Shown here piece after piece: positions 522-12,952 of a stretch of 38,391 nucleotides of DNA. Positions within the stretch are counted from its first letter, which is position 1, and each line of letters opens with the position of its first letter. A program made the translations under genes and the position numbers. Source of the DNA: Deltaproteobacteria bacterium (GTDB lineage Bacteria > Bacillota > Desulfotomaculia > Desulfotomaculales > JAGUVT01); assembly GCA_020062745.1 (NCBI GenBank), contig JAGUVT010000103.1:1-38391 (forward strand), read 5' to 3'. Under the pieces are notes generated by a model, which saw only the letters and a program-made list of their open reading frames with translations, had not been told where the DNA came from and made no database searches.

Positions 522-1316
522 TTAAAAGCCGTATTTGCGGAGCAGTTCCTGGCCGGACTCCGAAACAACAAAGTCCACAAACAGCCGGGCCGGCTCCGGC
601 TGGCGGGCGCCCGCCACCGGGGCGATATAGTATTCCGCCCGGATGTTGGCAGCATCCGGTATTTCCAGCATCCGTACGGCCCCCGCCGTTGATACCGCGG
701 CGTCCGTGGCGTAGACAAAGCCGGCATCGGCCTCGCCCAGCGCCACCTTGGTAAGCACGCTTTTAACATTGGTCTCCTCCGAAAGCAAATTGGCCAGCAC
801 CTGCTCACTGTAACCCGCGCCCAGTTTTTCCTCCAGGTTATGCAGCACCTGGCGCGCGTAACCGCCTGCCGGCACATCCGGGGCCGCCAGCACCAGACGG
901 TGGGGTTTTACCAGGTCATCCACACTGTCAATCCCCGCCGGATTGTTCTCCGGCACCACCAGCACCAGGCGGTTGCGGGCAAAAACCGTATAATCCGGCA
1001 CCAGCCCCTGCTTTTGCAGGGACTCCATGTGGGCCAGATTGGCCGCGGCAAAAACGTCCGCCGGGGCGCCCCGCTCCAGTTGGGCGCGCAGGCGCTGGGT
1101 GCCGTCAAAATTAAAACGCACCGCCACTCCCGGGTGCTGCCGCGCAAATTCGCCGGCCAGTTCCTCGAAAGGCTGCTTTAGGGAAATGGCCGCCATTACC
1201 GTCAACACTTTCTTTTCCTCTTGGGCGGGCCGGCCGCCGATCACCCAAAAGGCCAGTCCGCCCAGCAACAGCACTATAAAAGATAAAAACAACAGGCGTG
1301 TTTTAACCGTTCTCAA
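522..1316 (-). CDS. modA: Molybdate-binding protein ModA
   Basis: Extracytoplasmic solute-binding protein that captures molybdate (possibly tungstate) for the ModB/ModC transporter. A hydrophobic N-terminal segment (LLFLSFIVLLLGGLAFWVIG) acts as signal or membrane anchor; I see no lipobox cysteine. The mature part has the ModA landmarks: LTVMAAISLKQPFEELA, a GTQRLRAQLERGAPADVFAAA stretch, RNRLVLVVPENNP, and ETNVKSVLTKVALGEADAGFVYATDA. The length of 264 aa is normal. I chose the TTG at 1316 because the GGAGG at 1326-1330 stands 9 nt before it. The TTG at 1322 in the same frame is only 3 nt from that site. The start overlaps the end of the MOSC gene by 14 nt, which suggests translational coupling. 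Specificity for molybdate over tungstate is inferred from the neighbouring Moco genes. Confidence 0.94.
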   Translation of the reverse strand: MRTVKTRLLFLSFIVLLLGGLAFWVIGGRPAQEEKKVLTVMAAISLKQPFEELAGEFARQHPGVAVRFNFDGTQRLRAQLERGAPADVFAAANLAHMESLQKQGLVPDYTVFARNRLVLVVPENNPAGIDSVDDLVKPHRLVLAAPDVPAGGYARQVLHNLEEKLGAGYSEQVLANLLSEETNVKSVLTKVALGEADAGFVYATDAAVSTAGAVRMLEIPDAANIRAEYYIAPVAGARQPEPARLFVDFVVSESGQELLRKYGF

Positions 1317-1749
1317 TTCCAATCACCTCCACGGTGTCGCCTTTCTTGATCGCCCCGCCGGTTTTCACCGCGGCGAAAACCCCTTCCCGGGGCATGACAC
1401 AGTCGCCCGCCTGGCGGTAGATGTTGCATTTGCTGTGGCATGTTTTGCCGATCTGGGTTATCTCCACCACCGCTTCTTCCCCCAGGCGCAATCTGGTGCC
1501 CACCGGCAGGGCGGCCAGGTCGATACCCTCGGTGGTAATGTTTTCCGCAAAATCCCCCGGACCCACAGCCAGCCCCTTTTCCTGCATTTTCCGGATGCTT
1601 TCCCGGGCCAGCAGGCTCACCTGGCGGTGCCAGTTGCGGGCGTGAGCGTCCCCCTCCAGGCCGTGGTCCGTCCGCAGCATCCCCCGGCGGATGTCTGTCT
1701 TTCGCTCGCCGGTTTTAGCGCTCCGGCAGACAGCAATTATTTTTCCCAT
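1303..1749 (-). CDS. MOSC domain protein (molybdenum cofactor associated)
   Basis: A free-standing 148-residue MOSC domain. MOSC domains occur at the end of Moco sulfurases and in mARC-type proteins and are thought to bind or handle Moco. Visible family features are GLEGDAHARNWHRQVSLL near the N-terminus, PGDFAENITTEGIDL, LPVGTRLRLGEEAVVEITQIGK, and a cysteine-bearing segment KTCHSKCNIYRQAGDCVMP. That segment holds the position of the conserved cysteine in the family. The start ATG at 1749 gives MGKIIAVC, the typical family beginning; the 17 extra upstream codons lie in the end of moaA and have no homology. It starts 8 nt after the moaA stop and overlaps modA. Its place inside the Moco operon supports a role in cofactor modification or delivery, but the exact reaction is unknown. 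Confidence 0.9.
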   Translation of the reverse strand: MGKIIAVCRSAKTGERKTDIRRGMLRTDHGLEGDAHARNWHRQVSLLARESIRKMQEKGLAVGPGDFAENITTEGIDLAALPVGTRLRLGEEAVVEITQIGKTCHSKCNIYRQAGDCVMPREGVFAAVKTGGAIKKGDTVEVIGIENG

Positions 1750-1757
1750 TGTACTGG

Positions 1758-2747
1758 TCAACCCCCGATCTGAAACATTTTGCGCGGCTGGCAACCCCAA
1801 CCGTTTAATTCCATGTCATGCCCCCCCGGCTTGGCGGCCGCCGCCCGCCGGAAGGCCTCCCGCAGGGCGCCGTCGTCCGCCCCGTTCCGTAAAAGCGGCA
1901 TAACGTCCACTTCCGCTTCTTTTTGCAGGCAGGGGCGGAGCTTGCCGTCGGTAGTCAGCCGCAGGCGGTTGCAGTGGTTGCAAAACCGGTGGCTCATGGC
2001 CGCAATAAAACCGATACTGCCCATGGCTCCGGGAATGGCGCAATATTCCGCCGGCCCGTTCCCCGGCACGTTCTTCCGCGGGATAAGTCCGAAATGCCCG
2101 GCAATCCTTTCCCGCACCAGGCTTAAAGGCAGAAAGCCCTCGCGATCGCTTTCGCCGATGGGCATCAATTCCACAAAGCGCACGTGCAGCGGCCGCTCCA
2201 GGGTAAGGCGGGCAAAATCCAGCACTTCATCGTCATTAAAGCCCTTCATCACCACCATGTTCAGCTTTACCGGCGCCAGGCCGGCGGCCAGGGCCGCCCC
2301 GATTCCCTCCCGGACCCGGTCCAGATCGCCGCGGCGGGTAATGTAGCGAAATTTGCGCGGATTCATGGTATCCAGGCTGATGTTCACCCGGTCGAGCCCG
2401 GCCGCTTTCAACTCCCCGGCGTGGCCGGATAAAAGTATGCCGTTGGTGGTCAGGGCAATTTCCGCAATGCCGGCAATCTCTCTGATCCGCTCCACCAGTT
2501 TCACCAGTCCCTTGCGCACCAGGGGCTCGCCGCCGGTCAGGCGGACTTTATTTACCCCCAGTCCCGCCGCACAGGCCACCAGGCGGGCAATCTCCTCCAG
2601 GGTCAGGACATCCCGGCAGCCGCTCAGCGCCACCCCGTCCGCCGGCATGCAGTAGCGGCAGCGCAGGTTGCAGCGGTCGGTAACCGACACCCGGAGGTAG
2701 TTTATCTCTCTTTTAAAACGGTCTTGCAGGTCAACCGCCCCCTTCAC
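1758..2747 (-). CDS. moaA: GTP 3',8-cyclase MoaA (radical SAM)
   Basis: First enzyme of Moco synthesis. With S-adenosylmethionine it converts GTP to 3',8-cyclo-7,8-dihydro-GTP, which MoaC then turns into cyclic pyranopterin monophosphate. The N-terminal radical-SAM motif is Cys26-x3-Cys30-x2-Cys33 (DRCNLRCRYC). The second cluster ligands are Cys256-x2-Cys259-x13-Cys273. The protein ends in a Gly-Gly pair, as functional MoaA proteins do. TGGEPLVRKG is the SAM-binding GGE motif. At 329 aa the length is standard. The annotated start is GTG at 2747, 11 nt after mobB; a CTG at 2729 behind AAGGGGGCGG is a possible alternative. No moaC, moaD, moaE or mogA is in the window, so these must be elsewhere. 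Confidence 0.97.
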   Translation of the reverse strand: MKGAVDLQDRFKREINYLRVSVTDRCNLRCRYCMPADGVALSGCRDVLTLEEIARLVACAAGLGVNKVRLTGGEPLVRKGLVKLVERIREIAGIAEIALTTNGILLSGHAGELKAAGLDRVNISLDTMNPRKFRYITRRGDLDRVREGIGAALAAGLAPVKLNMVVMKGFNDDEVLDFARLTLERPLHVRFVELMPIGESDREGFLPLSLVRERIAGHFGLIPRKNVPGNGPAEYCAIPGAMGSIGFIAAMSHRFCNHCNRLRLTTDGKLRPCLQKEAEVDVMPLLRNGADDGALREAFRRAAAAKPGGHDMELNGWGCQPRKMFQIGG

Positions 2748-2758
2748 TTAACCGGCCG

Positions 2759-3256
2759 TCAGCATTTTTCAGCATTTCCCCCGTCTTTCCTTAAAAACCG
2801 GTTCTCGATCAAATCAGCGATTCCGGCCGCGTCGTCTAAATCGAAACAGGGCACGCCGATGTCCAGCGGCTCGTCGGCGGCCAGCGCCAGCAATTCTCCG
2901 GGGGGGCTTAAAAGCTTTCCCGCCAGGTTTTTGCGACGCACTTCAATCTTGGGCCTGTCCCCGGTTTTATAGCCCTCGGTAAGCACCAGGTCGACCGGCG
3001 GCAACTGCCGCACCAGTTCATCAAGGGATATCTCCCTTTCCCCGGTGCGGGCGATGAGGGCCATTTTCTCCCTGGAAGAGATCATTACCGCATCTGCTCC
3101 CGCCTGAAAATGGCGGTAGGTGTCCTTGCCGGGATGGTCTATTTCAAAACGGTGCGCGTCGTGCTTGATCACCGCCACCCGGTACCCCCGCCTTTTAATT
3201 TCCGGAATTAATTTCTCCAGCAAAGTGGTCTTGCCGGAACCGGACCGGCCCACCAC
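2759..3256 (-). CDS. mobB: Molybdopterin-guanine dinucleotide adapter MobB
   Basis: GTP-binding P-loop protein that assists MobA in attaching GMP to Mo-molybdopterin, giving the bis-MGD form used by DMSO-reductase family enzymes. The Walker A motif is VGRSGSGKTTLLEKLI. KHDAHRFEIDHPGKDTYRH and LVLTEGYKTGDRPKIEV are the other family signatures. Homologues normally begin about seven residues earlier (Met-x-x-(P)-V-I-S-V-V-G-R). Here that same sequence (T-V-P-V-I-S-V-V-G-R) is encoded upstream in frame, but no ATG, GTG or TTG precedes it before the in-frame TGA. The GTG at 3256 is therefore only the first canonical start; a non-standard start such as ACG, or a sequence error, is possible. It lies between moeA and moaA, behind a repeat-filled gap. 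Confidence 0.92.
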   Translation of the reverse strand: MVGRSGSGKTTLLEKLIPEIKRRGYRVAVIKHDAHRFEIDHPGKDTYRHFQAGADAVMISSREKMALIARTGEREISLDELVRQLPPVDLVLTEGYKTGDRPKIEVRRKNLAGKLLSPPGELLALAADEPLDIGVPCFDLDDAAGIADLIENRFLRKDGGNAEKC

Positions 3257-3408: not shown

Positions 3409-4638
3409 TTACGCCGGTGCCGCAACGCGGCATGAGTGTCTATCCAGCAAAATAGTTCTTACCATATCGCCCGGCGCCAGGGGGCCGCTTCCCGCCGGGA
3501 TCTCCGCCAGGGCATTGTAGCCGCGCATGGCGGCCAGTTCGCCGCCTTCGTTTAAGGCGGCCCGCCACCCGTTTTGATAACCGGCGACCGCCCACAGGTA
3601 ACGGCTGCGTTCGGGTGAAGACCTGGCAAACCCATTTTCCAGCGCCGCCTCCACCACCGGCGGAAAAATATTTGTTCTGCCGCCCAGCCTGGCTATTACC
3701 GGGCCGGCCAGCAGGTAAAAGTTCACCAGCGCCCCGTTCGGTTTGCCGGCCAGTCCCAGGTAAACTGTTTTCCCCCGGACGGCGGCCACCACCGGCATCC
3801 CCGGCTTGATCCGCACCTTCCAGAAAAAGACCTCGTCGGCGGTCTCCAGCAGGGCCTGCCGCACCAGGTCGAAATCACCCATAGACACCCCGCCGGTGCT
3901 TAAAACCAGGTCGGCCTCCTCACCCGCCCGGGTCAGCATCTCCTTGCTGGCTTCCAGTTCGTCGGGCAGGGAAGGGTAAAGCAGCACCCGCCCCCCTGCT
4001 TCCTGAACGGCCGCCGCCAGCATGTAGCGGTTGCTGTTGCGGACTTTACCGGGCAAAAGGGGCTCACGGACATCCAGCAATTCGTCTCCGGTAGAAAGCA
4101 CCGCCACCCGGGGACGCCGGTAAACTTCCACTTCGGCATACCCCTGGGCGGCCAGCACCGCCGCCTCTCCGGGCCCGACAACCATGCCCGGGACCAAAAG
4201 CTGCATTCCGGCGCTGATATCGCACCCCGCTTCCTGGATATTGGTTCCGGCCTCTATCCCGCCGGGGACGACAGCCAGCGCGCCGTTTCTCGCCACATCC
4301 TCCCGGCGCACCACCGCATCGGCTTCCTCCGGCACCGGCGCGCCGGTCATCACCATCATGCAGGTTCCCGGCTCCAGGGGCACCGACGGGAGCTGCCCCG
4401 CCGGCAGTTCCGCCAGCACTTTCAAAGCCGCCGTCTCTTTGTTGCGGGTGTCCGCGGAGCGCAGGGCGTACCCGTCCATTGTGGAACGCCTGAAAGAAGG
4501 AAGGAAATCACGCGCTAAAACTTCCCGCGCCAGCACCCGGCCGGCAGCCTCCAGCAGGTCGATCCTTTCCGTGTCCAGGGGAGCCGCCGCGGATAAGACC
4601 AGTTCTTGCGCTTCATCTAAAGAAATTTTCTCTTTCAC
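3409..4638 (-). CDS. moeA: Molybdopterin molybdenumtransferase MoeA
   Basis: Inserts molybdate into adenylylated molybdopterin to form Mo-MPT. Recognisable motifs are STMDGYALRSADT (N-terminal), MTGAPVPEEADAVVRRED, VLSTGDELLD, KVRNSNRYML and STGGVSMGDFD, the last being the MPT-binding loop. The C-terminal MoeA domain IV follows. The start is GTG at 4638 behind GGAGGAG. The gene begins 14 nt after mobA. The last nine codons (His-Ser-Cys-Arg-Val-Ala-Ala-Pro-Ala) come mostly from a dispersed repeat (3416-3438), so the original stop has probably been replaced and the tail is not family sequence. The length of 409 aa is otherwise normal. Confidence 0.96.
   Translation of the reverse strand: MKEKISLDEAQELVLSAAAPLDTERIDLLEAAGRVLAREVLARDFLPSFRRSTMDGYALRSADTRNKETAALKVLAELPAGQLPSVPLEPGTCMMVMTGAPVPEEADAVVRREDVARNGALAVVPGGIEAGTNIQEAGCDISAGMQLLVPGMVVGPGEAAVLAAQGYAEVEVYRRPRVAVLSTGDELLDVREPLLPGKVRNSNRYMLAAAVQEAGGRVLLYPSLPDELEASKEMLTRAGEEADLVLSTGGVSMGDFDLVRQALLETADEVFFWKVRIKPGMPVVAAVRGKTVYLGLAGKPNGALVNFYLLAGPVIARLGGRTNIFPPVVEAALENGFARSSPERSRYLWAVAGYQNGWRAALNEGGELAAMRGYNALAEIPAGSGPLAPGDMVRTILLDRHSCRVAAPA
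3416..3438. repeat. Dispersed repeat family D, copy 1 (inside the end of moeA)
   Basis: A 23-bp sequence with a GC-rich palindromic core (TGCCGCAACGCGGCA). It is identical to 29330-29352 in the murD-mraY gap. Read on the minus strand in the moeA frame it encodes His-Ser-Cys-Arg-Val-Ala-Ala-Pro. Confidence 0.85.
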
Positions 4639-4652
4639 GATTTACTCCTCCA

Positions 4653-5255
4653 TTAGCCTTTTCTGGAAACATCAACAAGCCTGCGGGCCATTGCCAGATC
4701 GGCAGGGGTGTTGACATTATAAAAAACCTTTTCCACGTCGGCCACCAACGCTATTTTTTCCCGCGCCACATACTTTACCCGCACCTGGTGATAAAAGGCG
4801 GTAACTCTGGAAATACGGCTTTCCAGGCATCTCGTGACCGGCGCCAGGCAGTCCCTGGAATATACGGCAAACAGCGGCTGCAGGCGCTGATTTATTTGGG
4901 GCGCCACTACGTCAAAACCGGGCGCCTCCCGCACCAGGTACCCCGCCAGTCCGGCTTCCACAAAGGGCATATCGCAGGCCAGCACCAGGCTGTACTGGTT
5001 ATGGGCGGCGGTTAGACCGGCATGGATGCCGCTTAAAGGACCCAGGCCGGGGATAATATCCCCAACCGCCTCCACCCCCGGGAGGGCATATGCCGAAGGC
5101 TCGCCGCCGGCAACGAGCACCTGGGCGAACAGCCCGGACAGTTGCGCTACCGTTCTCTCGATTATCTTCTGCCGGCCGATTTCCAGAAAAGCCTTGTGGC
5201 AACCCATGCGGGTGTTTTTGCCGCCGGCCAGGATTATCGCCGTCGCTTCCAGCAT
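4653..5255 (-). CDS. mobA: Molybdenum cofactor guanylyltransferase MobA
   Basis: Transfers GMP from GTP to Mo-molybdopterin, producing the MGD cofactor. The nucleotidyltransferase signature LAGGKNTRMGCHKAFLEIG stands at the N-terminus, followed by GLGPLSGIHAGL, LVLACDMPFVE and the C-terminal FYNVNTPADLAMA, all typical of MobA. I start the gene at the ATG at 5255 because it follows a GGGGGTGAGG ribosome site; the ATG at 5273 has none. This gives 200 aa, normal for the family. It is the first gene of the operon, 95 nt after the terminator of the riboswitch leader, and a half copy of repeat A lies in between. Presence of both MobA and MobB fits the bis-MGD enzyme encoded nearby. Confidence 0.96.
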   Translation of the reverse strand: MLEATAIILAGGKNTRMGCHKAFLEIGRQKIIERTVAQLSGLFAQVLVAGGEPSAYALPGVEAVGDIIPGLGPLSGIHAGLTAAHNQYSLVLACDMPFVEAGLAGYLVREAPGFDVVAPQINQRLQPLFAVYSRDCLAPVTRCLESRISRVTAFYHQVRVKYVAREKIALVADVEKVFYNVNTPADLAMARRLVDVSRKG

Positions 5256-5296
5256 GTCCTCACCCCCTGCCATTGAACGTAAAAAACAGCATCTGC

Positions 5297-5391: not shown

Positions 5392-5419
5392 GCCCCTTAC
5401 AGCATACAATCCGTTTTTG

Positions 5420-5536
5420 TCTCCTTTGCCTGCAGCGGGCAGATATGACGGTTTTCCGTCATACCCCGTGAGCTTTAAGCCCAGGCCATGCTCCATGGAT
5501 TAAAAAAATAATCTTTAGGTCACATGGCTTCGGAGA
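5420..5536 (-). promoter_or_regulatory. Riboswitch aptamer, probably molybdenum-cofactor (Moco) type
   Basis: The minus-strand leader is closed by a P1 helix TCTCC (5536-5532) with GGAGA (5424-5420). A GAA/AAA internal loop and a GCC/GGC helix follow. Inside is a long hairpin, TATGACGG-AAAA-CCGTCATA, centred near 5460, and further pairing GCCTG/CAGGC. Directly downstream are an antiterminator arm (5412-5407) and a terminator (5391-5350). The regulated genes are mobA-moeA-mobB-moaA-MOSC-modA-modB, exactly the gene set placed under Moco RNA motifs in other bacteria. The fold and its mutually exclusive pairings are visible in the sequence. The ligand (Moco, or the tungsten form) is inferred from context and was not confirmed against the family model. 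Confidence 0.75.
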
Positions 5537-5546
5537 TTGCACCTCA

Positions 5547-5583: not shown

Positions 5584-6336
5584 TTAATCAACAGCCCCCT
5601 GACCGGCGACGTCCGGCCGGGGTCTTACCAGCCTGGCCACCAGCACGCCGGTTTCATACAACAGGTATGTGGGACCGGCCAGCATTACCTGGGAAATTAC
5701 ATCCGGCCCCGGGGTCAAAACCGCCGCCAGGGTGAAGATGACCAGCAACGCATATTTCCGCTTTTGTGACAGCCACCTGTAATCAATCAAACCCATCCGG
5801 GCAAGAAAATACACTACCAGGGGCAGTTCGAAAATCACCCCGAAGGGAATCAAAAAAGAAACCAGAAAGGAAACATAACGGCCGATGGAGATCATGGGCG
5901 TCAGGTCTTCACTGCTTACCATCACCAGCAGAAACCGGGCGGCAAAGTTGAACACCACCAGATAGGCGAAAGCCACCCCGGCGGCAAAAAGCAAAAGGGA
6001 CAGGGGAAGCATTACCAGCAGCCGGCGCCTTTCCCGCGGGTAAAGCGCCGGGGAGACAAACCGCCAGATCTCCCACAGAATTACCGGCAGGGCCAGGATT
6101 ACCCCGGCCAGGAAGGAAATCTTGATCCTGGTGACAAAGGCTTCGGCCATACCGATATAGATCAGTTTCACGGCATATTGGCGCAATGGGTCGGTAATCA
6201 ACTGAAACAAAAGATCGCCCAGGGCGGCATAGCTGATGCTCGTAGTCACCAGCACCGTTACGGCGCTGACGGCTAAAACCCGGCGTAAATCTTCCAGATG
6301 ATCTTTAAGGGACAGGTTTTTCTCTTCCACGAACAT
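5584..6336 (-). CDS. tatC: Sec-independent protein translocase TatC
   Basis: Multi-spanning membrane receptor of the twin-arginine translocase; it recognises the twin-arginine signal of folded, cofactor-loaded proteins. The 250-aa protein has six hydrophobic segments. The family marks are DHLEDLRRVLA at the N-terminus, FLAGVILALPVILWEIWRFVSPALYPRERR with the conserved loop glutamate, and FGVIFELPLVVYFL. The start ATG at 6336 gives MFVEEKNLSLKDHLEDLR, the usual cytoplasmic beginning. It follows two tatA genes. The nearest obvious substrate is the twin-arginine molybdoenzyme at 10149-12749, whose cofactor is made by the operon immediately downstream. Confidence 0.96.
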   Translation of the reverse strand: MFVEEKNLSLKDHLEDLRRVLAVSAVTVLVTTSISYAALGDLLFQLITDPLRQYAVKLIYIGMAEAFVTRIKISFLAGVILALPVILWEIWRFVSPALYPRERRRLLVMLPLSLLLFAAGVAFAYLVVFNFAARFLLVMVSSEDLTPMISIGRYVSFLVSFLIPFGVIFELPLVVYFLARMGLIDYRWLSQKRKYALLVIFTLAAVLTPGPDVISQVMLAGPTYLLYETGVLVARLVRPRPDVAGQGAVD

Positions 6337-6818: not shown

Positions 6819-6844
6819 GAGCTGTCAGCCGTCAGCTATCAGCC
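6819..6844. repeat. Dispersed repeat family F, copy 1
   Basis: Minus strand GCTGATAGCTGACGGCTGACAGC: a run of GCTGA(N) units. It supplies the TGA stop of the polyferredoxin gene and the spacer before tatA. Related runs lie at 15591-15612 and 15697-15723. Confidence 0.65.
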
Positions 6845-7981
6845 CAAGATCTTTGCTCTCGCAATGACATACGGCATCTCCGCCCACTGCCGGCGCTGCT
6901 TGCAGCATGCCGACCCGTCCTCAACCACCGCAGTATAAATCCCGCCGCAATCAGGACAGGTAAATTCCCGGCCCTCAACCAGGCAACGGGCGCTTTTACC
7001 CAACTCAACAGCTTTATTTTCTTCCAACCGCAACACGCGATGATAACAAACTTCCACGCACAGGTTGCAGCCACTGCAAACAGCGCCGTCCAGCTCAAGC
7101 CTGATCACGCCGTTTACTCTATTTTGCTTTAAGGCCCCTTGCGGACATAAAATACTGCATGCTTCACAAAACCGGCAGTTGCCCTCCACGCGCGGCAGTT
7201 TCACCCTGATTCTTTCCGCCAGTTCCGGCTGCTTCCATAGCAGGTCAAGCAAGACCCTGCGCCGGCCGGTGATCATTCCTTCGGCAGCCGTAATCCGGCG
7301 CTGCTCCTGTTGCTCTCCGCCCAGCAAGCCGGAAACAAAGTTTTCAGGCACTTCGCCCAGCCCGCCGACCAGCGCCCCGAAAAGCTGCCTGCGCTCCCTG
7401 TTAATATGCCGGGGGCGGTCCTTTTTCTGCTCTATGTTCAGCCGGGTGCAAACCAGCATATTTTTTTCAGCCAGGGACTCCGCCTTTCGCATCTGCTCCC
7501 GCCAGATTTCCCCGCCTGTTTCCACACAGCACCGGTTACAGCCCTCCGCCGGGTGAAAAACTTTTATGGTACCGGAAAAAAACAGCAAGGCCAGCCATTC
7601 TTCCCAGCTTATACTCCCCAGGCACGGCACCTCAATGCCCTGGCGAAACCTTTTTTGCGGCGCATGCCGGGAGCAGAAAACATATCCATTTTCATATGTT
7701 CCGGCCAGCCTCTCCGCCTCCCCGGTCAGTTGCAAAGGCGACGGCATCCTGGAAAGAGCGCCAGTGGGGCACGCCGCGCCGCACAACCCGCACTCCGGGC
7801 ACTTGGCCGTTTCCAAACCGTCCATCGTCCACTTAATCACCCCGGCAGGGCACACCTCAAGGCAGGCCCGGCAAGTGCTCAAGCGTGAACGCACCCGGCA
7901 GCACCGGGACGAACCGACCACCGGGTTGCCCAAATTGGAAACAATGTTTGCCGCTTTTAACAGATCGAGCACCGGCGTCAC
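6839..7981 (-). CDS. Polyferredoxin-like protein with two double-cluster domains
   Basis: A 380-aa cytoplasmic iron-sulfur protein of no named family that I recognise. The N-terminal domain has Cys37-x2-Cys40-x3-Cys44-Pro, lacking the usual first ligand; Cys27 or Cys28 might replace it. It also has a complete Cys61-x2-Cys64-x2-Cys67-x3-Cys71-Pro. A middle part with scattered cysteines (PCLGSISWEEWLALLFFSG, EGCNRCCVETGG) recalls electron-transfer subunits. The C-terminal part has two full motifs, CRFCEACSILCPQGAL and CSGCNLCVEVCYHRVL, then a zinc-ribbon-like CPDCGG...CC. Its place between the NrfD gene and the tat genes suggests electron delivery to, or maturation of, the molybdoenzyme. The last ten residues (YVIARAKILG) are read from repeats A and F, so the true tail was lost or extended. 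Confidence 0.7.
   Translation of the reverse strand: MTPVLDLLKAANIVSNLGNPVVGSSRCCRVRSRLSTCRACLEVCPAGVIKWTMDGLETAKCPECGLCGAACPTGALSRMPSPLQLTGEAERLAGTYENGYVFCSRHAPQKRFRQGIEVPCLGSISWEEWLALLFFSGTIKVFHPAEGCNRCCVETGGEIWREQMRKAESLAEKNMLVCTRLNIEQKKDRPRHINRERRQLFGALVGGLGEVPENFVSGLLGGEQQEQRRITAAEGMITGRRRVLLDLLWKQPELAERIRVKLPRVEGNCRFCEACSILCPQGALKQNRVNGVIRLELDGAVCSGCNLCVEVCYHRVLRLEENKAVELGKSARCLVEGREFTCPDCGGIYTAVVEDGSACCKQRRQWAEMPYVIARAKILG
6846..6870. repeat. Dispersed repeat family A fragment inside a coding region
   Basis: Minus strand TGTCATTGCGAG then AGCAAAGATC, the left arm of repeat A. It is read in frame as the C-terminus of the polyferredoxin (Val-Ile-Ala-Arg-Ala-Lys-Ile). Confidence 0.75.
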
Positions 7982-8171: not shown

Positions 8172-9461
8172 TCAGTATGAGACTGTTTTTTCGTCGGTTC
8201 GCTTCAATGACGCTTTGACAGCGCTCTCATAGCACCCCGGCAGGTAACGCACCCCGAGGGTTATAACCAGAAGCACAAGCGCCATGGGAAACAGCGTTAC
8301 CATAACCTCCACCCCGGACGGTACGTAGTTCCAAAAGGACACAAAGATATCCTGCGGCGGGTTATATACACCCGTAGCGATCGGATACGCCCACAGTTCC
8401 CCGGAAACACCGGGTACGGGCAAAGATAACGGAATAGAGTTATAAGAAGAAGGCATCAGCAAAAACCGGTGGGCGTAGACGCCGGCCAGCAGGATCAGCG
8501 ACGCCGCGTACAGCCCCCGGAAAGAGTTTTTCGTACCGGGATGCAAAAACATGATCATGGCGGCGAAGGGAAGAACCACTTCCGCCAGGTGCAGCCAGGT
8601 GTAATCCCGCAAAGCAATGAGCAGCGGCTCCATTTCATGCGCCGCGCCCCACCACCATCTGAGCATGAAATCATTATACATAAAGAAAAAATGAACGATA
8701 ATAAACGCTCCGCTAATGGATGCCAGGGTACGGTAAGCGCCGGCGTATTGCTGGAAAGTTTCCCGCCCCTTGACCGTCAGGGAAACCAGGATCACCAGGG
8801 CGGTACCGGAAGCAACCGCCACGGAAATGAAATCCGGAGGCAAAATGGCTGTATTCCACCATGAGCGGGACACCTGGGTAGAGAATATCCAGGCCGTAAC
8901 CGTATGGATAAGAATGGCAAAAGGAAGACCGACGTAAGCCGCAACCCGTGAAAGTCGCCGGGAAATCTCTAAAACTTCGTCTTCCGTTTTCCCCCCTACC
9001 GGAAACGCCAGCCGGCTCTTTTGTTTAAAAAGGTCTGGCAGAACGTCGATATAGAGGCTCACCAGCGTCACCAGGGCGTAACCGGTAATGACAATGATAT
9101 CCCAAACCAGCGGTGATCTAAAATTCGGGTGCAGCAGCAGGTTATAGACCCGGTCCGCTCTCCCCAAATCCGGCAGCACCATTGCGGCAGCTCCCATGGC
9201 GCTGGCAAAAGCGGTAATCTTGGCAATCCTGGCCAGCGGCTTAAGTAGGGCGAGATCGAAAATATAGACGGACGACGATACGATCAGGCCGCCGGCGGCG
9301 ATTCCGACGAAAAAAGCAAAGGTGGCGATATAAATACCCCAGCTAAAGGGATTCCGCATGTTGGTAACGACCATTCCTTCTTTAAGCTGAAAGCCCCAGG
9401 CCACCAGGCCGGCCAGGACAATTAAACCAAGAAACACTATCCACGCCTTAGATTCTTTCAA
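8172..9461 (-). CDS. NrfD/PsrC-like membrane subunit of molybdoenzyme complex
   Basis: Polytopic membrane protein (429 aa, roughly ten hydrophobic segments) of the NrfD family. In polysulfide, tetrathionate and related reductases such subunits exchange electrons with the quinone pool without haem. The first helix is IVFLGLIVLAGLVAWGF. FSWGIYIATFAFFVGIAAGG matches the conserved NrfD beginning, with NPFSWG and a Gly-rich helix. The start is TTG at 9461, 8 nt behind GGAGG. The GTG at 9470 overlaps the ribosome site itself and is unlikely. It overlaps the Fe-S gene by 14 nt, showing translational coupling. The complex order catalytic / Fe-S / membrane is standard. The substrate is not deducible from this subunit. 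Confidence 0.9.
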   Translation of the reverse strand: MKESKAWIVFLGLIVLAGLVAWGFQLKEGMVVTNMRNPFSWGIYIATFAFFVGIAAGGLIVSSSVYIFDLALLKPLARIAKITAFASAMGAAAMVLPDLGRADRVYNLLLHPNFRSPLVWDIIVITGYALVTLVSLYIDVLPDLFKQKSRLAFPVGGKTEDEVLEISRRLSRVAAYVGLPFAILIHTVTAWIFSTQVSRSWWNTAILPPDFISVAVASGTALVILVSLTVKGRETFQQYAGAYRTLASISGAFIIVHFFFMYNDFMLRWWWGAAHEMEPLLIALRDYTWLHLAEVVLPFAAMIMFLHPGTKNSFRGLYAASLILLAGVYAHRFLLMPSSYNSIPLSLPVPGVSGELWAYPIATGVYNPPQDIFVSFWNYVPSGVEVMVTLFPMALVLLVITLGVRYLPGCYESAVKASLKRTDEKTVSY

Positions 9462-10152
9462 TGCGCTCACCTCCGCTTCGTCTTGCCGGCAAGTAATAAA
9501 CCTTTGGTTGAGTGCCCAGATCTTCCAGAAGCCGGAACTCTCCCCGTTGCGTCAGCAACCGGGAAACCTCGCTTTGCGGATCATCAAGGTCGCCGAAATA
9601 ACGGGCGTTCGCCGGGCAGGACCGCACACAGGCCGGCGCCTCCCCACGGTTCACGTACTGGGCGCAAAAGGTGCATTTTTCCACAACACCCTTGGGCCGG
9701 GAGGGCATGTAGACAAGCCGGCCCTGCTTATCCCTGTATTTATGCGGCCAGCCGTAGCTGTAACCGTGCGCGTAATGCGCCTTTTCCGTCGCTTTTTTCC
9801 CGTCCTGCCAGTTAAACTGCCTTACCCCGTACGGGCAGGCCGTCATGCAGTAGCGACAGCCGATACATCGCTCATAGTCAATCAGCACGACACCGTTTTC
9901 ATCATAATAAGTGGCGCCTACCGGACAAACCTTCACACAGGGCGCGTTACTGCACATCTGACAGCATACGGGCAAAAAGTACATGCCCATTCTGCCGTAT
10001 TCCCCCACACCGGTCTGGTGAAACTTGCTGCCCGGCGTAAAAACGCGATTCCACCAAACGCCCGGCGGCTGCCCGTTATGGGCCTTGCAGGCCACGGCAC
10101 AAGTGCGGCAGCCCAGGCATTTTTCCAGATCGATAACCATACCGTACTTCAC
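9448..10152 (-). CDS. Four-cluster Fe-S electron transfer subunit (DmsB/NrfC/PsrB type)
   Basis: A 234-aa protein with four [4Fe-4S] motifs of the DmsB/PsrB class. These are CLGCRTCAVACKAHN (Cys12, 15, 18, 22), CCQMCSNAPCVKVCPVGA, CIGCRYCMTACPYGVR and CTFCAQYVNRGEAPACVRSCP. It passes electrons between the catalytic Mo subunit and the NrfD membrane subunit. It has no signal peptide of its own, so it is probably co-exported with the twin-arginine subunit. The start is GTG at 10152, which overlaps the TGA of the catalytic gene (GTGA), and the end overlaps the NrfD gene; the three genes are tightly coupled. Confidence 0.93.
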   Translation of the reverse strand: MKYGMVIDLEKCLGCRTCAVACKAHNGQPPGVWWNRVFTPGSKFHQTGVGEYGRMGMYFLPVCCQMCSNAPCVKVCPVGATYYDENGVVLIDYERCIGCRYCMTACPYGVRQFNWQDGKKATEKAHYAHGYSYGWPHKYRDKQGRLVYMPSRPKGVVEKCTFCAQYVNRGEAPACVRSCPANARYFGDLDDPQSEVSRLLTQRGEFRLLEDLGTQPKVYYLPARRSGGERIERI

Positions 10153-12749
10153 GCCATAACACCCGCCTTCCGTACGTCAACCAGGCATTCGTTCCAGCAC
10201 GTATTGGGGCTCCATATGCCCGGTACAAAGTAAACCTCGTGGGTCGGCTTGATAAATGGGTAGGTCAGGGAATTGTAAGCGGTTCCCTCGGTATACCGGC
10301 TCCACCAGCCCTGTTCGAAAATAATCACTCCGTTCCGGATGCCCGGATCGATCACGGCATAAGCAATGAGCCGGCCCCGGTCGTTATACACTTCCACCCG
10401 CTCTTTATCCTCAATGCCTCTCTGCCGGGCTTCGCCGGGACTCAGCCAGACCCGCGGCTTGAGGTCCTGGAGTTCGTTCATCCATATGTTGTTGGAATGG
10501 GTCGAGTGCACCCGGTAAAGGGCGTTTCGGGTTATGAGCGCAAGCCGGTACTTCTCGCGGGCCCCGGGATTGAGACGGTACTCGGTATCTTCAAAAGGCG
10601 GTTTATGCACCGGAAGTTCTTCGCCCAACCGGCGGAAAATATCCTCTTCCCGGTAAAACTCGATCCGGCCGCTTTTAACCAGGGCGGCGGTCTTTTCCAG
10701 CGGCGCCGGCAGGCTCTGGGGCGGGAAAGGTTTTTTTTCGTTAACCTGCTCATAAAAGGGAATCTGCCTGTGACCCGGCGCGGGAAGCTTGAGCCGTACC
10801 GGCCCCTTCTTCAGATCCGCCAGGGTTATGCCGGCAACTGCCTCGCCGCCCTTTTGCAGCATTAACTCAATTGCTTTTTCAGCCGCCTGGTTGACGTCAA
10901 GCTCCGGGAAAAAATGGCCGGCAAAATCCGGGTTGATCCTTTTAGCCAGTTCCCTTATAATCCACAGTTCCGGCTTGCACTCGTAAAGCGGCTCAATGGC
11001 CGGCTGCTGGATCTGCACATACGGGTGCACCGGGCTGGCCACCAGTTCGGTTTTCTCGTACCACGTCACGCCGGGCAGCACTACGTCGCTCCACTGGGCC
11101 GAGGTGCTCATCTGGAAATCCATGGCCACGATAAGCTCGAAATCGCCGCCGGTAGCCATTTTTCTCATCTTATTGGACATATTGTGCTGATCGAACGGGT
11201 TCCCCCAACCAAACAACAAGGCTTTAATCCCATTCGGGGGCAACTTGGCCTTCATGTCGGGGGTGGGTCCGTGCAGGACGTACAGGAAGGGAACCCAGTT
11301 CGGCTTTTTGTCCGGCGGAAACCACCAGGAACCGATATTAAACCTGATCCGGTACTGGCCGGCGTAAGTCGAAATGCCCGCCCCCGGCTTGCCGATGTTC
11401 CCGGTCAGTACCGTCACCAGGGCCAGCGCCCGGCCTTTGAGGTCACCGTGGTACCACTGATAGTTGCTGGCGCCGTAAACTATATGCAGCGGCTTTACCG
11501 CGGCCATTTCCCGGGCCAGCCTGATGATTGTCTCCTGGCTGACGCCCGTTATGCCGGCTACCCTGGACGGGGTATAAGAAGCAGCCAGCTTCTCCTTTAA
11601 GAGCTGAAAAACCGGCTTGCATTTTACTCTCCCGCCGTCTTTCAAGGCCACCTCGAACTCGCCCTCGAGAGCCGGATTCCCCACCGGCTCAAGGCTTTGC
11701 GGGTTGACGGAACGGGGCCCGCCGTCCCAAACCACAAATACTTCCCGGTAATCAGGCGCCGGCAGATTTGCCGCTCCGCTCACTTCATTTGCGCGCAGGC
11801 GCTTGCCGTTGTCGCTCCTGATGAGAAGCGGTAAATCAGTATAGCTCTTAATAAAAGCCTCATCGTACAGCTTTTCTTCGATAATAACCTGAGCCAGACC
11901 CAGCCCGAAAGCATCGTCGGAACTCGTCGCTATGGGTATCCATTCATCCGCCTTGGCCGCCGTGGGAGTGTAGTTGGGGTCCACCACAATGAATTTGGCG
12001 CCCCGCTGCCTGGCTTCCACCAGAAAGTGGGCGTCGGGAACCCGCGTGGCCAGCAAATTTGAGCCGAAAACAGCGATGTACTTCGAGTTCAACCACTCCA
12101 GGGGCTCCAACTCCTCGGTTTGCACGCCGAAGGTCATGGGCCAGAACATCGGCAGATCTCCGTTCTGATCGTAGGCGTGGTGCAGGCTCCAACCGGCCTG
12201 CGCGGCCAGGGCGGCTACCGCGCCCTTGTGGACGTAGCCCGTGCCGCCCACCTGGAAGGCCACCCCCACAGACTCGGGACCGTATTTGCCCATAATTTCC
12301 TTTAACTTACCGGCAACGTAGTCCAGCGCTTCGTCCCACGACGCCTCCCGGAACTCCCCCTTGCCCCGCTCTCCCGTGCGGATCAAAGGGGTTTTCAACC
12401 GGTCGGGCCCGTAAATAAGGTTTAAAAAAGAAAGGCCCTTGAGGCAGCCGCGGGGGTTGTACTCCTCCTCCGGATAATCATCGGCCTGAATGATCGCCTT
12501 GATCTGGCCGTTGTCCACCAGCGCCAGCATCCCGCAGGCGCCCGTGCAGTTGGGCGAACAGGTGGTCCGAACGGCTTTTAAGCCCGCCATGCTGGCTTCT
12601 ATCGCGTGCTCGCTCGCCCCAATTTTGCGGGCCAGGCCCAAAGCCGGGACACCCGAAGCAACTAAAGCCCCGGCCGCCGCCGTCGCCTTTAAGAAACCGC
12701 GGCGTGAAATCTTAAAGGCCGGCGCGTCCTCTTTTTGCTGCTTTGCCAA
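10149..12749 (-). CDS. Tat-exported molybdopterin oxidoreductase, DMSO-reductase family (aspartate-ligand, NarG-like)
   Basis: Catalytic bis-MGD subunit, 866 aa. Residues 15-21 (SRRGFLK) and the hydrophobic stretch after them form a twin-arginine signal. The FS0 cluster ligands are Cys64-x3-Cys68-x3-Cys72 and Cys102. The segment YDQNGDLPMFWPMTFGVQT, then NSKYIAVFGSN and TRVPDAHF, follows NarG almost motif by motif. This makes Asp198 the likely molybdenum ligand, as in class II enzymes (nitrate, selenate, chlorate reductases, ethylbenzene and DMS dehydrogenases). The first FS0 ligand is Cys instead of the NarG histidine. The C-terminal cofactor domain ends with THEVYFVPGIWSPNTCWNE. The partner is NrfD-like, an arrangement described for the selenate reductase SrdBCA. 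No TorD-type chaperone is visible. The substrate is unknown: selenate, another oxyanion or sulfur species are possible. Confidence 0.92.
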   Translation of the reverse strand: MAKQQKEDAPAFKISRRGFLKATAAAGALVASGVPALGLARKIGASEHAIEASMAGLKAVRTTCSPNCTGACGMLALVDNGQIKAIIQADDYPEEEYNPRGCLKGLSFLNLIYGPDRLKTPLIRTGERGKGEFREASWDEALDYVAGKLKEIMGKYGPESVGVAFQVGGTGYVHKGAVAALAAQAGWSLHHAYDQNGDLPMFWPMTFGVQTEELEPLEWLNSKYIAVFGSNLLATRVPDAHFLVEARQRGAKFIVVDPNYTPTAAKADEWIPIATSSDDAFGLGLAQVIIEEKLYDEAFIKSYTDLPLLIRSDNGKRLRANEVSGAANLPAPDYREVFVVWDGGPRSVNPQSLEPVGNPALEGEFEVALKDGGRVKCKPVFQLLKEKLAASYTPSRVAGITGVSQETIIRLAREMAAVKPLHIVYGASNYQWYHGDLKGRALALVTVLTGNIGKPGAGISTYAGQYRIRFNIGSWWFPPDKKPNWVPFLYVLHGPTPDMKAKLPPNGIKALLFGWGNPFDQHNMSNKMRKMATGGDFELIVAMDFQMSTSAQWSDVVLPGVTWYEKTELVASPVHPYVQIQQPAIEPLYECKPELWIIRELAKRINPDFAGHFFPELDVNQAAEKAIELMLQKGGEAVAGITLADLKKGPVRLKLPAPGHRQIPFYEQVNEKKPFPPQSLPAPLEKTAALVKSGRIEFYREEDIFRRLGEELPVHKPPFEDTEYRLNPGAREKYRLALITRNALYRVHSTHSNNIWMNELQDLKPRVWLSPGEARQRGIEDKERVEVYNDRGRLIAYAVIDPGIRNGVIIFEQGWWSRYTEGTAYNSLTYPFIKPTHEVYFVPGIWSPNTCWNECLVDVRKAGVMA

Positions 12750-12932: not shown

Positions 12933-12952
12933 AAAGTGATCCAGATCACTTT
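12933..12952 (-). promoter_or_regulatory. Crp/Fnr-family operator upstream of the molybdoenzyme operon
   Basis: AAAGTGATC-CA-GATCACTTT, a perfect inverted repeat with nine-base arms. The GTGA-N6-TCAC core is the binding pattern of Crp/Fnr family regulators. It lies about 185 nt before the start of the molybdoenzyme gene and behind the spoIIR stop. Control by a redox- or ligand-responsive Crp/Fnr protein encoded elsewhere is inferred. Confidence 0.65.

Follow-up and report, generated by a model that had tools for sequence, protein, structure and literature searches.

The closest described relatives of the system treated here are the products of AF_0174-0176 of Archaeoglobus fulgidus, which genomic and proteomic data are reported to identify as the enzyme by which this archaeon reduces perchlorate (PMC8322695) and to which this role is ascribed "putatively" elsewhere (PMC6299022; papers are cited by PMC number, here and below). 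GAH_01285 of Geoglobus ahangari has been named a close homologue of AF0176 (PMC8322695), relatives of Af_0176 have been listed in Desulfosporosinus, Desulfitobacterium, Carboxydothermus and Moorella (Moth_1908) (PMC6299022), and the literature excerpts searched contain no assay of enzyme activity for any member of the family. Here, an operon of this family is analyzed in a DNA stretch of 38,391 nucleotides (nt), hereafter the window (contig JAGUVT010000103.1 of assembly GCA_020062745.1, positions 1 to 38,391), from a genome deposited as Deltaproteobacteria bacterium and placed by GTDB in the Desulfotomaculales. The operon codes for a molybdenum-containing catalytic subunit (alpha), an iron-sulfur (Fe-S) subunit (beta) and an NrfD-type membrane subunit (gamma), and the clade of alpha takes in the AF_0174-0176 family, which the literature already treats as a putative reductase of perchlorate or nitrate. 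On balance, the complex is probably an exported, outward-facing menaquinol:nitrate oxidoreductase, the evidence favoring nitrate over selenate or sulfur compounds as substrate. Two points look new, being undescribed for the family in the open-licence literature searched: a ten-helix ActC-type anchor and an HcpR-type operator.

The operon lies on the minus strand of the window, and its three reading frames are all open and overlap by 4 nt (alpha/beta) and 23 nt (beta/gamma). The alpha gene (10149..12749), supported by its reading frame, Pfam, alignment and fold, starts with TTG preceded by GGAGG and codes for 866 residues with Pfam matches Molybdopterin, Molydop_binding and Molybdop_Fe4S4; a Tat-like (twin-arginine translocation) signal covers residues 13-31 (12657..12713; Pfam TAT_signal, E 0.00013, its 22.2 bits lying slightly below the cut-off of 22.7). 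The beta gene (9448..10152) codes for a DsrO-like protein of 234 residues with Pfam Fer4 domains and 17 Cys, 16 of them within four Cys4 motifs, whose best-scoring profile is DsrO (198.9 bits, just under the cut-off of 200). The gamma gene (8172..9470) codes for 432 residues matching Pfam NrfD (PF03916, E 3e-52).

At the level of sequence, the similarity of alpha to PcrA (373 bits) and to wild-type NarG (260 bits) is far beyond chance. In the alignment, YDQNGD198LP falls on YDWYCDLP and YDWYGDHP of NarG and PcrA, so that Asp198 (codon 12156..12158) occupies the column of their molybdenum ligand; it does so in 31 of 31 family rows (25 plus 6 archaeal) and is invariant in all 40 rows of a broader alignment, which bears out the preliminary description of this segment as NarG-like. 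The position of Asp198 over the molybdenum in three dimensions is predicted from these columns and the whole-chain alignment. In a careful tree of 30 rows, the 14 family rows form one clade (100/100), whose sister (99/97) is a 10-row clade holding NarG, pNar, PcrA and a chlorite-dismutase-linked enzyme, both being united at 100/99. A quick tree of 58 rows, from which two odd paralogues (L028, L029) had been excluded beforehand, agrees with it; in both trees the class II clade is separate from the Ser- and Cys-type rows included (24 rows, 100/99; 48 rows, 100), PcrA being a partial row and SerA, DdhA, ClrA, TtrA and PsrA having no row. The archaeal rows fall inside the family clade (100/100) and have the alpha-beta-NrfD order. 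The ligand column, both trees and the fold described below thus agree with the earlier assignment to the Asp-ligated class II, and the placement in a Ser- or Cys-ligand clade that would have spoken against it did not occur.

The strongest argument for nitrate, one by analogy, comes from the control region. A palindrome of CRP/HcpR type, GTGATCTGGATCAC (12936..12949), lies 187 nt before alpha, within the sequence AAAGTGATC-TG-GATCACTTT, and is the sole GTGA-N6-TCAC hit in the window. In the whole genome (2.69 Mb in 148 contigs, 99.65% complete) GTGATNNNNATCAC occurs five times and its reversed control not once, and each of the five sites precedes a gene: the alpha operon (187 nt), sat (40), cooS (74), hcp (137) and an HPP gene (49). 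Scores above the curated cut-offs identify hcp (833 bits), cooS (803) and sat (526). The GTGA-N6-TCAC operator is common to the alpha operon and hcp in the same genome. The complete TGTGA-N6-TCACA is present at the HPP site alone, whereas the hcp and cooS sites each keep a single half. HPP membrane proteins may act in nitrite transport. In Desulfovibrio desulfuricans, HcpR1 binds TGTGA-N6-TCACA, gel shifts were reported on hcpR1, napC and, weakly, sat, and expression of hcpR1, a nearby HPP gene and cooS rises with nitric oxide (PMC5701242). By the operator shared with hcp and sat and by analogy with HcpR1, the alpha operon would stand where nap stands in Desulfovibrio. A candidate regulator of HcpR type is L194, one of two Crp/Fnr proteins above the cut-off in this genome, whose predicted recognition helix reads R-E-T-V-N-R, the R, E and R at positions 1, 2 and 6 having been described as the mark of HcpR/Crp (PMC5701242); its best profile is Crp, with 107 bits far below the cut-off of 266.

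Related operons carry similar sites. Among 69 loci with enough upstream sequence, GTGA-N6-TCAC precedes alpha in seven (the window included; shuffle expectation 0.06) and TTGA-N6-TCAA in 12 others (expectation 0.56), jointly 19 of 69, both motifs having been picked after the window palindrome was seen, so that these simple-shuffle expectations are post hoc, the genome-wide count having followed the choice; from the rate observed in the named loci (34 and 44 hits in 1,257,450 bases) about 0.6 and 0.7 upstream sites would be expected. In four Desulfosporosinus loci the motif lies 119-122 nt before hcp, and in two of the four also before alpha. At one site of the host genome (L186, G000:C72:4785) the operator is situated between the carbon monoxide (CO) dehydrogenase gene cooS and a divergent rubrerythrin, which suggests that CO or oxidative-stress genes belong to the same regulon. 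HPP membrane proteins have two ties to the reductase: they lie next to it in Desulfobacterota, and in the host genome the HPP gene (L188, G000:C130:13030) has the same operator. Two other promoter types were tried and rejected: a sigma-54 promoter had no match before alpha (12 matches in the window against 20.7 expected), and the FNR consensus with two mismatches gave 21 matches against 12.8 expected, one being the GTGATC palindrome.

The neighbors of related operons also point to nitrogen oxides. With thresholds set in the script, 33 of the 80 named loci (1,257,450 bases) contain a match to a gene set for nitrogen-oxide metabolism, as do 2 of 20 control stretches, each of 20 kb and taken from carrier genomes, where both matches are NrfA; these are raw counts for mutually related loci and hand-picked control places. 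For the named loci the count is 25 of 80 without an uncertain NapA/NasC-like enzyme and 21 of 80 when loci having just a response regulator or NrfA are also left out. An enzyme with an NTRLCM motif, which from this motif we take to be NapA/NasC-like, lies directly upstream in eight loci of Moorella and relatives, seven of which also have a sigma-54-type activator. NapA, NapG and NapH accompany the complex in three Peptococcaceae loci from termite gut, hcp lies near it in eight loci (five Desulfosporosinus, three Desulfobacterota), flavodiiron proteins in three Desulfobacterota loci, a GAF kinase resembling the nitrate sensor NreA in eight (seven Clostridia, one Coriobacteriales) and NarL-type regulators in 12; HPP or CBS-domain proteins (clusters c12 and c13) occur near several Desulfobacterota loci.

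The predicted catalytic pocket is less easily reconciled with NarG. At the gate, the position of PcrA Trp461, Glu is found in 11 of 11 NarG-type rows, Tyr in 25 of 25 family rows and Phe in all six archaeal ones; Tyr466 of alpha (11352..11354) is present in 40 of 40 rows of the other family alignment, and Tyr is also the gate residue of a chlorite-dismutase-linked plasmid enzyme. Before the molybdenum ligand, NarG and PcrA read YDWY and the alpha family Y-x-x-N, with Asn196 (12162..12164) invariant in place of their Tyr. Taken together, these residues speak against chemistry identical to that of NarG, leaving room for chlorate or another acceptor. One alternative is therefore that the complex reduces another oxyanion or an N- or S-oxide (selenate, organic N-oxides, nitro compounds or an unidentified acceptor) and is co-regulated with nitrosative defence. 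It draws on a pocket (Asn196, Tyr466) that appears unlike both NarG and PcrA, on the existence of nitrate-negative carriers and on the breadth of class II enzymes, which act on selenate, chlorate, dimethyl sulfide and hydrocarbons (PMC10100899); among 18 recurring neighbor clusters scanned, each named from one representative, there is no selenium or sulfur-oxyanion gene but there are several nitrogen-oxide genes, and we regard this alternative as possible but rather doubtful.

The ligands of the FS0 cluster differ from those of NarG as well, as the preliminary description had noticed: Cys64 of alpha, which with Cys68 and Cys72 lies at 12534..12560 (the fourth ligand, Cys102, at 12444-12446), falls on NarG His49 in the alignment, a position altered in structure 3ir5, titled NarG-H49C. 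Cys64 and Cys68 are kept in at least 90% of the 40 rows, and among the 31 rows a ligand is replaced by Asp in a Methanoperedenaceae member (L060, at 68) and in an Oligoflexia bacterium (L062, at 64). Since Cys is also the first FS0 ligand in other class II enzymes (L005 of genome G027, L138, L139 and L142), it is not unique to the alpha family. The PDAHF motif named in the same description is present in the window and turns out not to be a family constant, 10 of 14 rows being without it (IDSDF, for example); Pro238 is kept in at least 90% of the 40-row set, and Asp239 is invariant in both the 14-row and the 40-row sets.

The alpha model (pLDDT 85.5, pTM 0.86) is closest to PcrA (Z 45.7; 34% identity over 795 residues), followed by EbdA (42.8), Nxr (41.4), formate dehydrogenase (34.7), NarG (34.4) and PsrA (29.0). 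PcrA being the closest solved fold, the same complex could be a (per)chlorate reductase with chlorate or perchlorate as its relevant substrate, the chlorite formed being removed chemically by sulfide. The published assignment of AF0174-0176 and the aromatic gate, shared with PcrA and, as Tyr, with the chlorite-dismutase-linked class II reductase on an Alisedimentitalea plasmid, speak for it; a chlorite dismutase had no match in the 80 named loci (BLAST, one query), neighbors and operator indicate nitrogen oxides, perchlorate would be an implausible main acceptor for rumen and sediment carriers, and Archaeoglobus neptunius, which has the cluster, does not use perchlorate (PMC8322695), so that we consider this explanation unlikely. 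As a separate observation, a plasmid typed as conjugative (L150, NZ_CP123588.1) carries chlorite dismutase beside a class II molybdenum reductase, an Fe-S subunit, a TorD protein and cytochrome c.

EbdA as the next-best fold raises the reverse direction, in which the complex would be a dehydrogenase/quinone reductase that oxidizes an external donor and feeds menaquinone, EbdA and DdhA being class II enzymes that oxidize their substrates and Qrc a quinone reductase with a ten-helix NrfD; the ten-helix relatives QrcD and HybB do reduce quinone (PMC6303296). Co-regulation with hcp and nitrate-type neighbors fit a terminal reductase, none of the 18 scanned neighbor clusters is a cytochrome c or hydrocarbon gene, and this possibility appears very improbable.

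The membrane subunit was modeled with ten long helices (pLDDT 84.9) and fits ActC of alternative complex III (6lod_C) with Z 37.9 over 400 of 432 residues, as against Z 19.3 over 243 residues for PsrC (2vpw_C, a chain of 250 residues). The DsrP profile is matched at 1e-10 or better by 38 of 38 family NrfD proteins, the window protein staying at 147 bits below the curated cut-off of 350. By model and profile, this subunit belongs to the ten-helix NrfD group (DsrP/ActC/QrcD) and is not PsrC-like. Members of this group have been described as pairing with catalytic subunits outside the standard Mo/W-bisPGD (molybdenum/tungsten bis-pyranopterin guanine dinucleotide) family, and Qrc as electrogenic (PMC6303296), whereas the modeled anchor here serves a standard Mo-bisPGD enzyme, which makes it a concrete test case for energy conservation by NrfD proteins. 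The NrfD-type partner proposed in the preliminary description stands (PF03916), but its guides Psr and Srd do not fit the ten-helix anchor, and Srd was dropped as a precedent because SrdA is listed as Cys-ligated, within the TtrA clade (PMC10100899). A haloarchaeal DmsA (L152, with NrfD) is not claimed as a second case of Asp ligand plus NrfD, its ligand column being poorly aligned.

In the mechanism proposed for nitrate reduction, menaquinol would be oxidized at the ten-helix subunit, close to the outward face of the membrane, and electrons would pass through the four beta clusters and the all-Cys FS0 of alpha to the Asp198-ligated Mo-bisPGD, which would reduce nitrate to nitrite outside the cytoplasm. 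The operon and hcp would be switched jointly by a CRP/FNR regulator of HcpR type, which would couple synthesis of the reductase to the clean-up of its nitrogen-oxide by-products. Of this picture, the order of the genes, the Tat-like signal, the ligand columns, the clade, the folds and the operator sites come from computation, whereas the substrate nitrate, the direction, quinol with its site, any charge translocation and the identity of the regulator are inferred.

The physiology of carriers is mixed. Desulfosporosinus metallidurans and strain I2 (L039 and L045) reduce nitrate and have only a 30-31% hit to Acididesulfobacillus NarG and none to Escherichia coli NarG or NapA (PMC10949509); this weak hit may be the alpha-family enzyme. 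In Acididesulfobacillus, two NrfD-containing molybdenum operons, which may or may not be orthologous to the alpha operon, rise about 13-fold on nitrate. Several observations weigh against nitrate. G. ahangari carries the cluster and is described as lacking nitrate respiration, A. neptunius carries it and is reported not to grow on nitrate or (per)chlorate (PMC8322695), D. fructosivorans (L044) carries it and is listed as nitrate-negative, and D. hippei, with the same 30% NarG hit, is listed likewise (PMC10949509). The perchlorate assignment in A. fulgidus counts on the same side, as does the pocket, where a Tyr/Phe gate and Asn196 are predicted to make it unlike that of NarG. Neither the alpha site nor the sat site has the HcpR1 outer bases (TGTGA, TCACA) on either side, and in Desulfovibrio desulfuricans hcp has been placed under HcpR2, not HcpR1, with sat expression unchanged (PMC5701242). 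Among the neighbors, the best profile of the NTRLCM enzyme is formate dehydrogenase (555 bits, cut-off 666; NasC 478, NapA 437), the NapA of L084 is below its cut-off (746 versus 904) and so is the NreA-like kinase (97.5 versus 175); a second nitrate reductase looks redundant in carriers with Nap beside the complex, the relatedness of the loci and the choice of controls temper the counts, and NrfA was not found in the host genome at E 0.001.

If the complex is a nitrate reductase, carriers recorded without NarG and NapA would gain a candidate enzyme for this reaction; if its substrate is perchlorate or another compound, the HcpR-type operator would still show the stress to which it belongs. 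A wider proposal, held more tentatively than the nitrate assignment itself, is that it represents a third respiratory nitrate reductase architecture besides NarGHI and Nap, outward-facing and Asp-ligated, with an all-Cys FS0, a possibly electrogenic quinol module of ActC/DsrP type and HcpR control together with hcp and sat, and that nitrate reduction might depend mainly on it in many sulfate reducers, acetogens, gut Clostridia and Coriobacteriia with no apparent nitrate reductase at present.

The combination was at first called uncommon, which as a statement of rarity is not borne out: a named scan of genome contigs confirmed 105 stretches, of which 80 loci were kept, in Desulfosporosinus, Moorella, Paradesulfitobacterium, Desulfobacterota, Methanoperedenaceae, an Oligoflexia bacterium, Eggerthellaceae, rumen Lachnospiraceae and others, and the family was already in print. 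In a sample of the phylum, 25 of 398 genomes (the host included) match alpha at 1e-70, with 19 orthologues at 59-70% identity besides the host gene (L006-L024, the last read with five internal stops) and one contig-end fragment; within the class, 2 of 113 genomes do so, the host and one with a 41% paralogue. A scan around Methanoperedens gave matches in 25 of 294 genomes, 12 being family members by score and the remainder covering about half to two thirds of the profile. Alpha, beta and NrfD are directly consecutive in 59 of 93 flanked loci (51 of the 80 named), the misses including short contigs and wrongly picked reading frames, and this arrangement is seen again in Bacillota, Desulfobacterota, Coriobacteriia, Methanoperedenaceae and Archaeoglobales; the alpha of L122 is very likely GAH_01285. 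The family is thus widespread among anaerobes that take part in the cycles of sulfur, carbon and nitrogen, but it has been little studied. Alpha stays below the cut-offs of the best 25 of 28 NCBIfam models (narG 290.6 versus 1084 bits; dimethyl sulfoxide reductase type II, TIGR03479, 509.7 versus 984.75), beta likewise below that of narH (85.6 versus 524), and annotation is therefore likely to misname the family.

Downstream of gamma, on the same strand, the window copy continues with a 380-residue multi-[4Fe-4S] protein (6839..7981, from profile scans; 28 Cys, with ferredoxin motifs at both ends), homologues of which lie beside the operon in nine named loci, all from Clostridia. A TorD/NarJ chaperone (PF02613) was not found in the host genome at E 0.01, so this protein may stand in for that chaperone and is possibly a maturation factor for the reductase. 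It is followed by TatC (5584..6336; 195 bits, cut-off 133) and by a molybdenum cofactor (Moco; molybdenum/tungsten) riboswitch (5406..5546; Rfam RF01055, 56.8 bits, gathering 36) between tatC and mobA, behind which profiles identify genes for MobA-like (4653..5273), MoeA-like (3409..4638), MobB (2759..3256), MoaA (1758..2747) and MOSC-domain (1303..1800) proteins and for an extracellular solute-binding protein (SBP_bac_11, 522..1322) that would, from its context, be ModA-like. A search with alpha at E 1e-3 found a single further relative in the host genome, a gene of contig C80 that is interrupted by an in-frame TGA and resembles a formate dehydrogenase of the selenocysteine type; with just this one other relative, the adjoining molybdenum and Tat genes may mainly serve the alpha enzyme.

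Compared with known systems, the window operon is like AF_0174-0176, Ferroglobus Ferp_0124 and Geoglobus GAH_01285 in clade and in alpha-beta-NrfD order, but the six archaeal rows have a Phe gate and YTMNGD, and the window copy, unlike AF_0174-0176, sits in a TatC/Moco cluster and has an HcpR-type operator. With NarGHI it shares the Asp ligand and the class II fold; it differs in its predicted export by a Tat-like signal (NarGHI is cytoplasmic), in Cys64 instead of His, in Tyr466 instead of Glu at the gate, in a short DsrO-like beta instead of NarH and in an NrfD (PF03916) instead of the heme-b NarI. PcrAB shares the best fold match, the Asp ligand and an aromatic gate, while in PcrA an FS0 ligand is His and Trp461 stands at the position of alpha Tyr466; we know of no NrfD among the partner subunits of PcrA. 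PsrABC and SrdBCA resemble it in combining an NrfD-superfamily anchor with an exported molybdenum enzyme, PsrC being shorter (243 residues of the model fitted, against 400 for ActC) and SrdA being Cys-ligated where alpha is predicted to be Asp-ligated. DsrOP, ActBC and QrcCD share with it the ten-helix NrfD subunit and a DsrO-like Fe-S partner, but in the window complex, as modeled, this quinone module serves a standard Mo-bisPGD enzyme.

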